Shown here one piece after another: positions 2,480-44,908 of a DNA stretch of 64,000 bases (positions are counted from its first letter, which is position 1; every line of letters begins with the position of its first letter). Both the position numbers and the translations under genes were made by a program. The DNA comes from Granulicella sp. L46 (lineage in GTDB: Bacteria > Acidobacteriota > Terriglobia > Terriglobales > Acidobacteriaceae), in contig NZ_LMUT01000003.1 of the NCBI RefSeq assembly GCF_009765785.1, forward strand, positions 359,570 through 423,569, read 5' to 3'. The notes below the pieces were generated by a model that worked only from the letters and a program-made list of their open reading frames with translations, did no database searches and had not been told where the DNA came from.

Positions 2480-3030
2480 GACGTGCCCCAATGAGCAATC
2501 GGTGAAGGGAGATTTAATATCTCCGGCCTCTGCACGATTTTTCGCGCGGAGGTGCCATCCTTCTGTGCGGTGCGAAGGGGATACCGATGCATATTCGCAT
2601 CGGAACTCTCAGCAGCCGCTAGGGGGGCCTTAGCTGACGATCGGGGGGGGAAGGAAAAAGAAACTGGTAAAACTTGTCGAGCGACGTCGATGCCAGGATA
2701 TGGCAGGCTCAATTCTAGAAAGAACGAAGGTCGACGGGTTCAGCGCGATAGCCGCTAAGCAGAGCGCGATGCAAAATGGCAGCGCTTCTTGAGTCGGCAC
2801 CGGAGGTAAATAGTCTCCGTTTACGTCACTCTTTTTTGTAACAGCGCGCTCGTTTTTTGAAAGAAGCTTAGCCTGAATAATAAGGTGGGCGTTGGATTGA
2901 TGAGGTTTATAGAGAGAGAGCTTATATCCGAGACCCCAACTGAAAACGCAGATCGTCAGCGCGACGAAAACCATCGATGACCAAAATTGTGGACGCCGCG
3001 TTGTCTTCACACAATTCACTCGTATCAACC
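2370..3030 (-). repeat. Inverted segmental duplication, copy A
   Basis: This segment covers the small membrane protein, the gap after it and the start of the LysR gene. Read on the minus strand it aligns with 6362-7020 on the plus strand. Similarity reaches into non-coding sequence: upstream TTGAT-CGAGTGAA-like bases and, in the gap, CAGAAGGATGG followed by CTCC-CGCGAA. The copies are diverged but collinear. Confidence 0.75.
2630..3019 (-). CDS. Small membrane protein, paralogue A of a duplicated module
   Basis: About 129 residues of unknown function. One transmembrane segment is near the N-terminus (SSMVFVALTICVFSWGLGY), followed by KLSLYKPHQSNAHL and AKLLSKNER. A second hydrophobic stretch follows (ALPFCIALCLAAIAL), and the C-terminus is FFFLPPPIVS. 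The protein at 6374-6766 is clearly related along its whole length. The GTG at 3019 is chosen because it aligns with the GTG start of that paralogue; a TTG at 3028 is also possible. Both copies lie upstream of a LysR gene or LysR remnant. No family name is recognised. Confidence 0.65.
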   Translation of the reverse strand: MNCVKTTRRPQFWSSMVFVALTICVFSWGLGYKLSLYKPHQSNAHLIIQAKLLSKNERAVTKKSDVNGDYLPPVPTQEALPFCIALCLAAIALNPSTFVLSRIEPAISWHRRRSTSFTSFFFLPPPIVS

Positions 3031-3536
3031 TTACACTTAGCGTCTAAAAAAGCTCTGCGACTTCGCAGATTACGAATTCGGTCTATTGTCGTCTTCAAAT
3101 CGTTTGATGGCCGATGATATCGAAAGGATAGCCGAAAAGATTTTTATGACTGATCAGACTTTATAGGGTTTCCAATTGGCATCTGGCCCAAACAACATCG
3201 AAGCCTCCTCTGTGAGTTTATTATCATGCACTTGCGAGAATTTTCATGACTCTCAGTCTGCGTCAGAAACCGATGAGCTCAGTACATTTCAAGGATGAAG
3301 TCATCCATTTGTGAAATACGTGCAAAAGGATGATCTAACTCTCGCCTCAACGGGAAAGCCTGATGGCGCATAAAAACTATTGACGTGCGGCATCGCGTCT
3401 CGGCTGACCGAAACGGGTATAAGGAGGAAGAGCGCGAAACGCGCAAAGAAGTCAGTGACGGAGGTTAGTTCTGAAGATATCCTCGAACACCCGGCCGGAA
3501 AGGGACAACAGTAATGTTAAACCCGCGCCTAGATGG
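3020..3536. other. Intergenic region between divergent genes
   Basis: About 517 bp with visibly lower G+C than the neighbours and no convincing ORF. It must hold the promoters of the minus-strand gene ending at 2630 and perhaps of the plus-strand gene at 3537. AAGGAGGAAG at about 3421 looks like a ribosome binding site but no good start codon follows at a normal distance. A short palindrome GCGCGAAACGCGC follows it. Confidence 0.5.
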
Positions 3537-3956: not shown

Positions 3957-4200
3957 GGCTTTCAGGCTTGCTGGAGCTGGAGGTTAGGCGCTGAAAGCAT
4001 ATGAGAGCACGTGGCGAAGACAACCGCTTTTCAGCGCTCATAAAGTTCAAATGACAGTCATAGCTGCAATTCTTATCGCAGATAAGGGAATCAGCTATCC
4101 GCAACTCATAGAAAGGCTTCCCCTTCATCGATTCTTTCTATGAGAAGCAAGGGCCACTTCCAGTTATGATTGCGCGTCTAGACAAACTCGAGAGTTCGCT

Positions 4201-20942: not shown

Positions 20943-21356
20943 ACAAGGCAAAGACTACACCAACACCCCAAACGGTAGCATCCTCCCCACTCGCCACGGC
21001 CGCCTCGCCGTTGCGTTTGCGTCAGTCTTTGCTCTTCCCTTTCTTTTCTGTCATTCCCCCTGGAAGTCTGCTCCTTCTTTTGCCTTGCTTTTGCTTTTGC
21101 CTTCGCCTTTCTAACTGTCATTCCCCCTCTGCTTCTTCTTTTGCCTTTGCCTTCGCCTTTCTGGCTGTCATTCCGAGCGCAGCGAGGAACCTGCTTCTCG
21201 CGCAAAGCGCGCCCGTTCTTGATCGCCCACAAATCCGTCATCCCGACCGAAGCGCGCAGCGCGTAGTGGAGAGACCCCTGTATTGCCGTTGCTTTAGCTA
21301 GAAGCTAGCAACTGACAACTAAGAACTAAGAACTAAGAACTGACAACACCCCCACG
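20943..21356. repeat. Intergenic repeat cluster
   Basis: Two degenerate hexamer tracts of the TTGCCTTTGCCTTCGCC type (about 21078-21110 and 21138-21162) come first. Two palindromic family-A repeats follow: 21167-21219 (GTCATTCCGAGCGCAGCGAG onward) and 21237-21288 (GTCATCCCGACCGAAGCG onward). Tandem AGAACTA and ACTGACAAC words lie at 21309-21348. No gene seen. Confidence 0.8.
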
Positions 21357-29245: not shown

Positions 29246-29394
29246 TTCTTAGTTCTTTGCTTTTGCTCTTGCTTTTGTCGTTGTTTGTTTTACGCCGTCA
29301 TCCTAGAGCGAAGCGAAGGATCCCTGCATTGGTTCTTGCCCTTGCGGTTGCACGCCTTCGCCTTTCCTGAGAACTGACAACGAAGAACTGACAA
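29246..29394. repeat. Hexamer tract, family-A repeat and ACTGACAAC words
   Basis: TTTGCTTTTGCTCTTGC tract at about 29255-29290. A family-A copy spans 29297-29330 (GTCATCCTAGAGCGAAGCGA then AGGATCC). AACTGACAACGAAGAACTGA lies near 29373-29395, like the words at 21309. Confidence 0.75.
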
Positions 29395-34163: not shown

Positions 34164-35858
34164 GTGAGCCTGTCCTCCACTCTCGAAGACGGCGCCGCTC
34201 CCGAGACCCAATCTCCAGAACCCAACCGCCCGACGGTAGGCTTCGTCTCGCTCGGCTGCCCCAAGAACCTCGTCGACTCCGAGGTCATGATGGGCCTGCT
34301 CCATCGCGGCGGCGCCCAACTCACCCCCCACGCCGAAGACGCCGATATTCTGGTCGTCAACACGTGCTCCTTCATCGACTCCGCCAAGCAGGAATCCGTA
34401 GACACCATCCTCGAGATGGTGCAGCACAAGATCGCCAACGGAGGCCGCGCCCAGCGCCTCATCGTAGCCGGCTGCCTCGTAGAGCGCTACCGCGACGAGA
34501 TCCGCGCCAACATCCCCGAAGTCGACGCCGTAGTAGGCACCGGCGAGCTCGAAGCCATCCTGGAAGCCGCCGGCCTCAACCGCCCAGCCACCAACTCCCC
34601 CTTCCAAATCCTCACCACGGCCCAATCCGATGCTGTCCAAATTGCGCGCCACGCCAGCTCGGTAAACCAGCACTCCCGCCCCGAATCCGACGGCCCTCAA
34701 CTCCAGCACGAAGTCCACACCCACTCAAACTCCGTCATCTCGACCGCAGCGCAGCGCAGCGGAGATACCCCGGTATTTGGAACTCCCGCGGCACCCTCGC
34801 ACTCCCGCCCCGAGGGCGACCTCCGCGAGCAGCAAGGTCGCTTCTCCCGCGACACCTGGGACGGCGCCACCGCCACCCTCCCCACCTACCTCTACTCCGA
34901 CGAAACCCCGCGCATCCTCACCACCCCGCGCTCCTCGGCCTACATCAAGATCGCGGAAGGCTGTGACCATCCCTGCAGCTTCTGCATCATCCCGCAGCTA
35001 CGCGGCAAGTTCCGTTCCCGCCCCTTGTCCAGCATCGTAGCCGAAGCCAAATCCCTAATCGCCCAAGGCGTCCGCGAGATCACCCTCATCGGCCAGGACA
35101 CCACCTGCTACGGCGAAGACCTCCTCCCCGACACCACCACAGGCAAGCGCCCCGAACTAGCCGACCTCCTCGACGCCTTAGCCCCCTTGGAAGGCCTGAA
35201 GTGGCTCCGCTTCCTCTACGCCTACCCCAACAAGATCACCCCGCGCCTCCTCCAAACCATCGCGCGCCACGACACCATCGCGAAGTATCTCGACGTCCCG
35301 CTACAGCACGCGAGCGCGAACGTCCTCCGCCGTATGAAGCGCGGAGGCACGGGCGACCGCTTCCTCCAAATCATCGCCGCCGCCCGCAAGGCCATCCCCA
35401 ACCTGGTTCTCCGCACCAGCTTCATCGTAGGCTTCCCCGGCGAAACCGAGCAGGACTTCGAAGAGCTCTGCGCCTTCGTAGAAGCCGCTAAGATCGACTG
35501 GCTAGGAGTCTTCTCCTACTCCGACGAAGAAGGAGCCGGCGCCTTCTCGCTCGACGAAAAAGTCCCCAAGCGCACCATAGAAGCCCGCCGCCGCAAGCTA
35601 ATGAAGCTGCAGCAAAAAATCAGCAAGCGCGCCCGCAAGCAATGGATCGGCCGCGAGCTCGACATCCTCGTAGAAGGCGAATCCGAAGAAACCGACCTCC
35701 TCTGGCAAGGCCGCAGCCTCGACCAGGCACCCGAGATCGACGGCAAGGTCCTCATCAACGACTTCGGCCCCCACGAAGAGCTAGTCCCCGGCACCTTCTA
35801 CCGCGCCCAAATCACCGAGTCCCACGACTACGACGTAGTAGCCCGCATCCTCGACTAG
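34164..35858 (+). CDS. rimO: Ribosomal protein S12 methylthiotransferase with an in-frame insertion
   Basis: About 564 residues from the GTG at 34164; normal RimO has about 440. It adds a methylthio group to an Asp of ribosomal protein S12. The N-terminal Fe-S domain has GFVSLGCPKNLVDSEVMMG, VVNTCSFIDSAKQESVDTIL and AGCLVERY. The radical SAM cluster is C267-x3-C271-x2-C274 in EGCDHPCSFCIIPQLRG. A TRAM domain ends the protein. Between the two cluster domains are about 95 extra residues that include VISTAAQRSGDTPVFG, the translation of a family-A repeat (34734-34790) like the one at 40248. The active-site parts are intact. Confidence 0.95.
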   Translation: MSLSSTLEDGAAPETQSPEPNRPTVGFVSLGCPKNLVDSEVMMGLLHRGGAQLTPHAEDADILVVNTCSFIDSAKQESVDTILEMVQHKIANGGRAQRLIVAGCLVERYRDEIRANIPEVDAVVGTGELEAILEAAGLNRPATNSPFQILTTAQSDAVQIARHASSVNQHSRPESDGPQLQHEVHTHSNSVISTAAQRSGDTPVFGTPAAPSHSRPEGDLREQQGRFSRDTWDGATATLPTYLYSDETPRILTTPRSSAYIKIAEGCDHPCSFCIIPQLRGKFRSRPLSSIVAEAKSLIAQGVREITLIGQDTTCYGEDLLPDTTTGKRPELADLLDALAPLEGLKWLRFLYAYPNKITPRLLQTIARHDTIAKYLDVPLQHASANVLRRMKRGGTGDRFLQIIAAARKAIPNLVLRTSFIVGFPGETEQDFEELCAFVEAAKIDWLGVFSYSDEEGAGAFSLDEKVPKRTIEARRRKLMKLQQKISKRARKQWIGRELDILVEGESEETDLLWQGRSLDQAPEIDGKVLINDFGPHEELVPGTFYRAQITESHDYDVVARILD

Positions 35859-35882: not shown

Positions 35883-36041
35883 GTCATCCTTCGCCGCAGG
35901 CGGAGGATCCGCTTCACTCCGATTCCGGTACCACTCCCCTTAAATTCTCACCCTTCGCCGCAAGCGGAAGATCCGTTTCTTTCCCATTTCTACACCGCTC
36001 TATTTAAATTGTCATCCTTCGCGCAGCGGAGGATCTGCTTT
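35883..36041 (+). repeat. Three family-A palindromic repeats in a row
   Basis: Copies at 35883-35914, 35949-35978 and 36011-36041, all in the same orientation. The core ATCCTTCGCC-GCA-GGCGGAGGAT is a 10-bp hairpin with one mismatch and a 3-nt loop. They lie directly before the GIY-YIG gene. Confidence 0.85.
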
Positions 36042-36364: not shown

Positions 36365-36398
36365 GTCATCTTTCGCCACAGGCGGAGGATCTGCTTTT
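36365..36398 (+). repeat. Family-A palindromic repeat
   Basis: GTCATCTTTCGCCACAGGCG then GAGGATCTGCTT, 18 bp after the GIY-YIG stop and in the same orientation as the three upstream copies. Confidence 0.85.
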
Positions 36399-40218: not shown

Positions 40219-40247
40219 CAAGCTCATCTCCTCCTCACACCGACCTC

Positions 40248-40300
40248 GTCATCTCGACCGAAGCGAAGCGCAGTGGAGAGACCCCCGTATTTGCACTCCG
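40248..40300 (+). repeat. Family-A repeat (long form)
   Basis: GTCATCTCGACCGAAGCGAA then GCGCAGTGGAGAGACCCCCG. One frame reads VISTEAKRSGETPVF, nearly the same peptide as the insertion in rimO. Confidence 0.85.
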
Positions 40301-42142: not shown

Positions 42143-42779
42143 CCCTACTCCCGTCCCACCCAACCGAAACTCTGCTCAGCCCTCTCTCCGCCCCATCCAA
42201 ACTCTGTCATCCTGAGCGAAGCAGCTCGCGCTTTTGCGAGCTGCGCAGCCGAAGGATCCCGAAGCCGCACGCATCACCCATACGTCCGACACCTTTCCGC
42301 CACCGAACCCCACCCTCGCCGTCCGCGCAGGACCTTAAAAGCTTTAGGGCGAATCCTCTCGCGAGAATTCGCCCTTCCGCCGTCCGAATCTTCGAAGATC
42401 TGGTTTCGGCACCAGATCAATCTCCGCTTCCCGTCCTCCCTCCGGTCTGCAGGCAAGCCCGCTGTCCGTTGTTCGTTCGTTCCGCAAATCTTGTGAGCTT
42501 CCTCGTCCTCAGCATGTCTCCGGTTGCCCGAAGTGAGTTTCGTCTCCGATCCCTGTCTTCGGTTGCCCGAAGTGGGTCTCTTCGCCGTCCCTCGCTGCCT
42601 CTGATTCTTTCTCTCTTCTCTGGAAGATCTCTCTTCCGTTGCTGAGAATCATCACACAAAATCCCGAATCCGCAACACCAAAATTTCTGTGCATATCTCG
42701 TCGATTTTGTGCTTAACTTTTCGTCGATTTTGCACTATTTCCTGAGCAAATTCCCGAAAATCTCACTACACACTACTCA
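42143..42779. repeat. Intergenic repeats and direct repeats
   Basis: A family-A copy at 42206-42265 carries a large internal palindrome AGCTCGC-N6-GCGAGCT. The GCCGTCCGCGCAGGAC word is at 42317-42332. Direct repeats CGGTTGCCCGAAGTG occur near 42525 and 42563, and TCGTCGATTTTG near 42700 and 42723. A long ORF in another frame across this region is not protein-like. No gene seen. Confidence 0.65.
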
Positions 42780-43901: not shown

Positions 43902-44908
43902 CCCGCTCTTGCACGCTACCGTCTCACACGCACCACAAAACAACCGCCCGACCAACCCTACCCGTGGCATCATGGCAATCTCCCGAAATCAAATGTCTGA
44001 AAGGTGGAGAAACCTCCACGCCCATTGCAGACGTGTTTTCTACAGAAATGTTTCGCTTCCCAGCGCGATATCCAAAACCCTCCCGCCTCCTTGATGCCCC
44101 CAATCAAACTCACCCCTCAACTCGAGCTTCCAGTTCCTCCCGAACCTCCCACCAACGCCCCGTCATCTCGACCGAAGCATCACGCTCCTGTCCTTGTGAT
44201 GCGCAGTGGAGAGATCCCTGCATTGGCGGTTGCTCTTGACCTTGCTCTTGCTCTTGCCTTGCTTTGCTTTTGCCCTCGCCTTTCTTTCTGTCATTCCCTC
44301 TGGGAATATGCTTCATCCTTTGCCTGTGCCCTTGCCTTTGCCCTCGCCTTTGCCTTTGCCGTTGCCTTTCTAGCTGTCATTCCGAAGCGCAGCAGAGGAA
44401 CCCGCTTCTCGCGCGAAGCGCGCCCGTTCTACCGGATTAGCAGGGGGCTTTAGCCCCGGGTTTGACCGCCACACCCAAAATAAATTCATCAAAAACAGCC
44501 CAAAATCCGCGTGTCAACCCCCCACCAACCCCCCAATCTCCCAAAACCCGCGCTCCCATTGCCGATTTCTCTCTATCCCGCTTGGCATAGTTACCCTACC
44601 CACTTCGCTACAATTGAATAAGGCGAACCATTCCGAAACTCCTCGGGGCCAGCCGCCTCCAAAACCTGACTCCTTCCCCGCTAATTGCAATGGATGCACT
44701 ACTTTGTCCGTAAAGTCTCTGCAAGGACTACTTTACAGGCAACGGAAGCCATAACCACGGTTGAATCAGTCACATAGGGCGGAAGTCAATGAAATCGATA
44801 CGTTGCCCTCTAACTCGCCTGCTAGGACTACTTTGCAGGATTAAGGGGTAGGGGGTGGGGGGTAGGGGGTGGGGGGTCCATGGTCGCCAGATATCATCAC
44901 ACTAGCCC
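43902..44908. repeat. 1-kb intergenic region of mixed repeats
   Basis: Family-A copies at 44162-44222 and 44376-44428. Hexamer tracts of TTGCTCTTGCC/TTTGCCTTTGCC type at 44230-44283 and 44318-44370. A family-B element at about 44436-44460 (GGATTAGCAGGGGGCTTTAG). Two copies of AGGACTACTTTRCAGG at about 44725 and 44824. The G-rich block is listed separately. Small ORFs across it are made of repeats. No gene seen. Confidence 0.75.
44846..44878 (+). repeat. G-tract repeat, possible quadruplex
   Basis: Alternating GGGG, GGGGG and GGGGGG runs separated by TA or T (GGGGTAGGGGGTGGGGGG pattern twice), about 30 bp before the next gene. Such runs can fold into G-quadruplexes. Confidence 0.7.

Follow-up and report, generated by a model that had tools for sequence, protein, structure and literature searches.

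The closest described relatives of the element treated here are the CGTC-tagged repetitive extragenic palindromic (REP) sequences. The four published families have a stem of 8-9 bp and a loop of 4-5 bases, the superfamily includes dRS3, RPE-4, and RPE-6, and copies are found inside genes too; the paper describing them reports no dedicated transposase (Di Nocera 2013, PMC3733652). These REPs occur in many bacteria and were left without a mobilizing enzyme in 2013. Here we describe a repeat of this kind that is read in frame within rimO of the acidobacterium Granulicella sp. L46, and a neighboring gene for a small GIY-YIG nuclease that is bounded by REPs and is probably a mobile unit. The stretch of DNA analyzed, called the window, comprises 64,000 nucleotides of contig NZ_LMUT01000003.1.

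Like the published CGTC-tagged REPs, the repeats in question have a (C/T)GTC tag, a stem that opens with AT, apparently a CC tail, and many copies, some of them intragenic. They differ in that the loops in Acidobacteria are often far longer than the published 4-5 bases, and in that a dedicated nuclease gene is flanked by them, whereas the 2013 paper finds no associated enzyme (PMC3733652). Rickettsia palindromic elements (RPE), likened here by description, provide a second parallel, a palindrome read in frame in conserved genes (here rimO, mnmG, and rnr). In the present case, however, the host is a soil bacterium, the repeats are of different subtypes, the hinge of one enzyme family has been hit repeatedly, and there is a candidate mobilizing gene. 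REPtrons, in which GTAG REPs accompany a REP-associated tyrosine transposase (RAYT), also combine a repeat-gene-repeat unit with solitary repeats, but the unit described here has a GIY-YIG nuclease in place of the Y1 HUH transposase, and its tag is YGTC rather than GTAG. A copying mechanism has been proposed for TnpA-REP and GTAG REPs, which relies on other chemistry (PMC8266576).

The nuclease shares its fold and catalytic residues with the GIY-YIG domains of UPF0213, Slx1, and UvrC. Its setting is different, in that the neighbors of a Radiobacillus relative are yabA, rsmI, and a gene for a tRNA methyltransferase, and no REPs of the strict form defined below accompany it. Another likely kin is Ssn, reportedly described in Nature Communications in 2025 as a group of widespread single-strand-specific GIY-YIG nucleases that have a cognate repeat in Neisseria and modulate transformation. 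The window nuclease is probably a member of the Ssn family. A family member in Neisseria gonorrhoeae sits in a cluster of repeats resembling dRS3. The pairing of nuclease and repeat may therefore be partly in print already, whereas it is the present analysis that proposes a mobile REP-ended unit and links it to the peptides captured in RimO and MnmG. Among the literature matches listed, no paper links GIY-YIG genes to CGTC REPs, to a repeat-ended unit, or to captured peptides. A captured repeat alone is an already known sort of event, given RPE and the intragenic REPs of PMC3733652; the unit that probably moves the captured repeat is the more interesting part.

An in-frame REP in rimO and the layers of the RimO hinge

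REPs of the form considered here are palindromes ~35-40 bases long. They have a (C/T)GTC tag, their stem starts with AT and ends with A(T/C), and CC follows as a tail. They were counted with a strict detector (GTCAT xyz N6-45 rc(xyz) A[T/C] C, where rc denotes the reverse complement) that was set on Acidobacteria sequences before its use on the 80 named loci discussed below. This rule yields 98 matches in 371 kb, compared with 5-29 for nine control tags. The superfamily signature YGTCAT occurs 164 times in the genome (101 forward, 63 reverse), and the reversed pattern is absent (0 matches).

The copy in rimO is a worn one and fails the strict rule. Window positions 34734-34790, in frame 0 of the gene, translate as VISTAAQRSGDTPVFGTPA. 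As in the CGTC superfamily, the tag is terminal and outside the stem (the copy reads CCGTCAT), and the stem has AT in positions 1-2 (ATCTC...GAGAT). The superfamily tail is mostly CCA; the rimO copy ends GAGATACCCC, with CC after one more base, and the detector demands a C after the stem. An 8-9 bp stem with a loop of 4-5 bases is not found in the rimO copy or in many Acidobacteria copies, which have interrupted stems and long loops, but this published form is seen in several alphaproteobacterial and Neisseria copies beside the same nuclease family. Judged by these features, the repeat is best classed within the CGTC-tagged REP superfamily in a broad sense, as a relative that stands outside the four published families.

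The sequence-only reading had proposed that a repeat element was captured as rimO coding sequence with the frame unbroken, and that the inserted DNA matches a repeat near position 40248. Both proposals hold. The rimO repeat is 83% identical over 58 bases to an intergenic copy at 40236-40293, and a local alignment with the copy at 40248 has 46/53 identical positions. Furthermore, the suggested search of the whole genome, made with a 101-base query around the rimO repeat, returned 43 matches at E <= 1e-3 (the query itself included), a number far beyond chance, and some of these matches lie within mnmG, rnr, and ccmF. What rimO contains is an in-frame copy of a palindromic repeat that is found throughout the genome and is of the CGTC-tagged REP type.

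The gene that carries this repeat is full length, as RimO scores 501 bits with profile TIGR01125 against a cut-off of 357, and its UPF0004, Radical_SAM, and TRAM_2 domains are all detected. In an alignment with T. maritima RimO (4jc0), the matching parts are residues 25-135 and 250-558, whereas residues 136-249 stand opposite about 20 residues. Because residues 136-249 have no 4jc0 counterpart beyond these ~20, the inserted stretch corresponds to the linker joining the two Fe-S domains. The ~95 extra residues reported earlier are the right count relative to T. maritima RimO, but most of them belong to an older, family-wide hinge and not to the repeat.

This layering can be read from two sets of RimO sequences. 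In the first, drawn from 120 family genomes, the hinge was readable in 63 of 70 loci (seven were not readable); in the second, it was readable in 27 of 28 new loci of one genus, which brings the total to 90 hinges. The 63 family RimOs have, with some variation, a common hinge core (SPFxIL ... SRPEGDxREQQGRFSRxxWDGA ... LPxYLYDETTPR), which makes some of the 95 extra residues old. Measured between CLVE and AYI, the shorter members have 97-104 residues, the same-genus G064 protein 128, window RimO 158, and the G031 protein 221. Relative to G064, window RimO has about 28-30 further residues, of which the repeat itself makes up about 12-15. Of the ~95 residues, only ~28 are specific to the Granulicella sp. 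L46 genome; the others belong to the older hinge. A tryptic peptide SGDTPVFGTPAAPSHSRPEGDLR is predicted from the frame, and the open frame and intact domains suggest that the hinge peptide is made and kept in RimO. A separate block, SASQ(Q/S/A)LKSG with close variants, is shared by the RimO hinges of a group of relatives (L034, L037, L038, L050, L053, L060, and L062).

Alignment of RimO across relatives, one of the checks suggested earlier, reveals a REP of this kind in six of the 90 hinges, namely those of the window genome (G000), G034, G031, and the trio G303/G411/G425, and the newer residues of window RimO are missing from same-genus G064. The repeats of G303, G411, and G425 look like one shared event; apart from these, the carriers differ in repeat subtype or in reading frame (two frames are used). 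The six carriers stem from at least four capture events. The opposing case raised in the sequence-only reading, in which all distant Acidobacteria share an insertion unrelated to repeats, therefore fails: 84/90 hinges are without the repeat, and the six carriers are diverse except for the three that share an event. The repeat in G034 RimO (GTCATCCCGACCG..GGAGGGATC) is in a different frame and is translated SSRPKRSGVEGS, and that in G031 RimO reads GTCATTCTGAGC..GAAGAATC. For G034 there is an exact empty site: 93 extra bases that include the repeat lie at an HHEI/ASRPEG junction and are absent in the sister genomes G406, G401, and G441. Only the captures in L011 (G034) and L018 (G031) satisfy the strict rule, and the others were recognized with a looser pattern and by eye. 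Outside the hinges, 51.6 kb of rimO frames contain five strict matches, four of which look like ordinary coding sequence; the fifth (L077) lies upstream of the likely rimO start codon.

A second, unrelated palindrome, GGTGCCCCA..CTCGATTCTGAGATGTGGG (GGTGCCCCA..TGGGG), read as GAPHLDSEMW, seems to have been captured in the hinges of L010, L018, L246, L252, and L255; it was read from DNA in some of the five hinges and from the translation in others. Its occurrence suggests that the hinge is a tolerant site and not a special target. Both L018 and mnmG have hairpins resembling GGGGCTTTAGCCCC.

Of the 42 further genome matches, seven were opened, and three of these lie within conserved genes that remain unbroken. 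The mnmG gene (L008; GIDA, 537 bits; 873 residues as read) has three strict REPs in two frames, rnr (L007; RNB, 342 bits) has an antisense repeat, and ccmF (L003) has its repeat in the C-terminal tail. The three MnmG repeats are absent from 11 aligned MnmG proteins of the same genus. A twelfth (L310, G458) carries two other strict repeats, of which one lies near the place of the window genome's second, and MnmG therefore also looks like a repeated target. In the RimO and MnmG hinges, probably mobile palindromes have repeatedly turned into protein sequence of conserved enzymes, with differences between sister species, and repeat capture offers a countable system for the growth of protein linkers.

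Single-domain GIY-YIG nuclease genes flanked by REPs

The gene that follows rimO encodes a nuclease with the GIY-YIG catalytic set (Y, Y-x-G, R, H, E, and N): among 77 aligned sequences Y20, G22, R30, H34, E67, and N86 are invariant, with Y10 nearly so. The nearest structural match to an AlphaFold model (mean pLDDT 79) is UPF0213 protein 1zg2 (E 2.5e-4); the branched-DNA nuclease Slx1 comes next, at E 0.002 or weaker. Against PADLOC, the nuclease gave weak partial matches only (PDC-S14, E 0.003). Five non-UvrC GIY-YIG genes were found in the window genome, all five with a strict repeat within 400 bp, and the uvrC gene of this genome has no such repeat beside it. The rimO REP is closest to the pair flanking another nuclease gene, L043 (37/44 and 38/49 identical; the next by score is 31/39), and for this reason the L043 nuclease is the first candidate for having moved the rimO REP. 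No empty site was found for the window's own unit, as gene order after rimO differs in the relatives read.

The association with REPs extends well beyond this genome. The named-genome sample consists of the best 80 of 552 confirmed places that match the nuclease. A REP lies within 400 bp in 68 of these 80 loci, and on both sides in 44 (212 repeats in all), compared with 0-7 loci, and never both sides, for 12 permuted tags. The 80 loci represent 14 phylum-level groups, assigned from record titles, each with at least one flanked locus. REP density is 4.65 per kb within 250 bp of the nuclease versus about 0.2 beyond 1 kb. Twelve of the 80 loci fail the strict rule, and seven of these (L136, L150, L170, L189, L195, L214, and L215) hold variant repeats by eye (GTCGT..GGACC, short loop, or mismatches), which were judged post hoc and are excluded from the counts.

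Further samples give a similar picture. Among family genomes, 15 of 20 non-UvrC GIY-YIG loci (20 of the 28 listed) have a REP within 400 bp, 13 of them on both sides, and three of the five unflanked loci (L121, L125, and L126) look like a different subfamily. New family loci in a second sample are flanked in 22 of 23 cases (18 on both sides). A third sample, 17 loci from 36 plasmid-collection records, has nine flanked loci, and six control tags give 0-2/17. Flanking is rare when other GIY-YIG loci of the phylum are considered (30 best Pfam matches): three of 30 are flanked, one on both sides. Real REPs accompany L094 and L111, which are exactly the two of the 30 that score >100 bits with the nuclease profile. 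The remaining 28 score <70 bits; one of them, L101, is the doubtful third case and looks like chance, and the other 27 score 31-67 bits. The third sample includes a plasmid of Azospirillum lipoferum (AZO_p3, L344, locus 2998-3291), where a nuclease unit lies inside a suf cluster, in the interval between sufB and sufC, as well as the N. gonorrhoeae record with the dRS3-like repeats.

A candidate mobile unit and its alternatives

Several observations indicate that the repeats and the gene between them belong together. In the 58 two-sided loci of 105 tested, the arms of the nearest upstream and downstream REPs are 0.891 identical within a locus versus 0.617 between loci, a difference reached in 0/5000 permutations. 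Pairs of loci were also compared for where their similarity ends. L117 and L123, both in G303, are alike only as far as the REPs (451 bp, 84%), and the same is true of L120 and L131 in G031 (494 bp, 77%; ends ...GGATGACG) and of L140 and L144 in two other genomes (483 bp, 93%). Seven such pairs were compared: for L117/L123, L117/L145, L140/L144, and L120/L131, similarity runs out at or close to the REPs on either side, whereas L193/L199, which begins at a REP, and L041/L142 and L040/L150, which lose similarity inside the unit, are less clear. Three additional pairs (L127/L133, L146/L147, and L149/L165) share their flanks too and thus represent the same site.

One unit, L127, was traced through 62 genomes. 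It occupies the same site in G303 and G034, and it is absent from G427, G441, G411, G176, and G416, where both flanks are recognizable. The vacant interval, scanned in four of these five, holds no repeat. Elsewhere in the genus there are scattered short matches to the end repeats of the L127 unit, with identities of up to 100%. Of the 120 family genomes, a nuclease match is present in 76 at E <= 1e-3 and in 72 at E < 1e-15. REP counts have a median of 35.5 in these 72 versus 9.5 in the other 48 (p 2.7e-7, with genomes taken as independent), and REP count follows nuclease copy number with a rank correlation of 0.48. A genome may contain several units with different REP subtypes. Three of the 80 nuclease genes in the named sample (L136, L150, and L175) have in-frame stops and are apparently decaying copies of the unit.

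Flanking by REPs, matching of their subtypes, homology that ends at the REPs, and presence or absence at one site are all directly observed, as are the sequence, frame, and position of the repeat in rimO and the relatives that lack it. We consider it probable, at roughly two chances in three, that the repeat in rimO is a solitary, worn REP, that the REP-bounded GIY-YIG gene is a mobile unit, and that the solitary REPs are its non-autonomous copies. A gene of ~95-105 codons together with its matching REPs would make up a unit of ~450-490 bases acting as a single mobile element, its REPs moved by the nuclease. Judging by its fold and by its relatedness to GIY-YIG enzymes that select DNA structures or single strands, the nuclease most likely recognizes the REP hairpin and tag in single-stranded or extruded DNA and cuts at the hairpin base, after which repair or replication would copy the REP or the whole unit to another place. 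At rimO, a REP plus some flanking bases would have been inserted in an already long hinge, with the frame kept by chance, and the hinge presumably tolerates the REP because it belongs to neither catalytic domain.

A broader proposition is that repeat-flanked single-domain GIY-YIG genes constitute a class of minimal mobile elements (~450-490 bases with REP ends) in many phyla, that they are the missing mobilizing partner of CGTC-tagged REPs, of dRS3, and probably of RPE-4 and RPE-6, and that they continually feed short peptides into hinges of housekeeping proteins, RimO and MnmG among them. We regard the odds on this wider statement as evenly balanced. Because the nuclease is flanked across many phyla and homology ends at the repeats, the question of the enzyme could be tested with a small protein and oligonucleotides.

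A number of points weigh against a mobile unit. Neither movement nor cleavage was observed, and no target-site duplication is evident in the same-genome pairs read by eye. The presence or absence at the L127 site might reflect either gain or loss. The nearest REPs are of mixed orientation in the 44 two-sided named loci (> gene < in 23, direct in 15, and the opposite inversion in 6), and the pair nearest the window's own nuclease gene is direct. Eight of the 17 loci in the third sample are without a strict REP, including both Sinorhizobium records, Sphingobium, and Novosphingobium. Structural kinship is modest, with one PDB match at E <= 0.001 (1zg2). The nuclease and the REPs are also not strictly coupled: of the 48 genomes lacking a strong match to the nuclease, six contain >30 REPs (150 in G032 and 93 in G079), and of the 72 that have one, seven contain <=5 (none in G021). 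Covariation of nuclease and REP sequences is weak (Mantel r 0.20, 0/5000, with host kinship not removed) and within the family is not significant (r 0.11, 629/5000).

Some of these same facts would suit a homing-type gene that entered or came to adjoin pre-existing REPs, with the solitary REPs not moved by it but owing their spread to some other enzyme or to slippage during replication. This idea draws on the REP-rich genomes that have no strong nuclease match, on weak matches of 19/77 nucleases to TIGR01453, a model of group I intron endonucleases (best E 8.7e-6), and on a report that REPs are insertion targets of insertion sequences (PMC1525189). We find it unlikely, if worth serious attention, because a single REP target would not readily yield REPs of matching subtype on both sides, and the vacant sites that were scanned (4/5) have no REP in them. 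It is also rather doubtful that nuclease and repeats form a domesticated host device in which mobility is old or incidental, for example one that tunes DNA uptake as is reported for Ssn and its repeat in Neisseria. The gonococcal gene within its cluster of dRS3-like repeats is consistent with such a role, whereas the patchy presence of the nuclease (76/120 family genomes), the finding of several units, of differing REP subtype, within a single genome, the copies with stops (3/80), and the presence or absence at one site argue for mobility instead.

Selection for a useful new property of RimO or MnmG might be suspected from the repeats in three RNA-handling enzymes of one genome (RimO, MnmG, and RNase R; seven of the 42 further genome matches opened), from the two repeats that same-genus G458 MnmG has of its own, and from the RNA-modification and repair genes also listed in PMC3733652. 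Nevertheless, the differing subtypes, frames, and positions, the other palindromes in the hinge, and the absence from close relatives fit neutral tolerance, and we judge selection very improbable. Movement of these REPs by a RAYT, as proposed for GTAG REPs, has precedent in known RAYT/REP pairs (PMC3733652; PMC2817692), but it is even harder to credit here: the genome has one Y1_Tnp match, whose 3.2-kb locus (L039) holds no strict REP, and no transposase lies beside CGTC repeats according to PMC3733652. Lastly, the poor conservation of the hinge might invite an explanation by chance or by convergent simple-sequence coding without repeat capture. This can be practically dismissed, as it is refuted by the 43 genomic matches, the exact empty site, and the three strict REPs in mnmG.

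Features of the window

The repeats and genes of the window that bear on the mobile-unit reading are collected below.

Positions of the rimO gene, its hinge, the GIY-YIG gene, and associated REPs in the window
Feature	Positions	Strand	Basis and remarks
rimO (30S ribosomal protein S12 methylthiotransferase)	34164..35858	+	564 aa, GTG start; TIGR01125 501 bits
RimO hinge, UPF0004/radical-SAM (residues 136-249)	34569..34910	+	Gap versus 4jc0; family sequences; older family-wide insertion plus newer material
REP core in rimO, GTCATCTCGACC...GCGGAGATACC	34734..34770	+	In-frame reading VISTAAQRSGDT; likeness to other copies spans about 34722-34790; missing in G064
REP ~25 bases past the rimO stop codon and before the GIY-YIG gene; subtype different from that in rimO	35883..35908	+	Strict detector
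Decayed REP, TCTCACCCTTCGCC..GGAAGATCC	35947..35972	+	Direct-repeat family D5, sequence
REP directly upstream of the GIY-YIG gene; subtype as 35883..35908	36011..36034	+	Strict detector
Single-domain GIY-YIG nuclease gene, 95 aa	36059..36346	+	PF01541 E 2.3e-13; two hundred bases past rimO
REP directly downstream of the GIY-YIG gene, GTCATCTTTCGCCACAGGCGGAGGATC	36365..36390	+	Direct (not inverted) with respect to the copy upstream; has a stem mismatch and escapes the strict detector
Intergenic REP before pgpA; subtype as in rimO	40248..40282	+	Direct-repeat search, strict detector
REP of the rimO subtype with a second hairpin within its loop	44162..44215	+	Strict detector

The strict rule has 14 matches in the window, from 4057 to 44401 and all on the + strand; those at 4057, 22020, and 30771 look like chance. 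At 21023-21176, 29247-29351, and 44213-44385 (families D2, D6, D7, and D12), several REPs are followed by runs of hexamers like TTTGCC or CTTGCC, as if by an attached simple-sequence tail. Many repeats seem to be nested palindromes with a second hairpin in the loop, as at 42206-42257 and 44162-44215 and in L277, L281, and L303.

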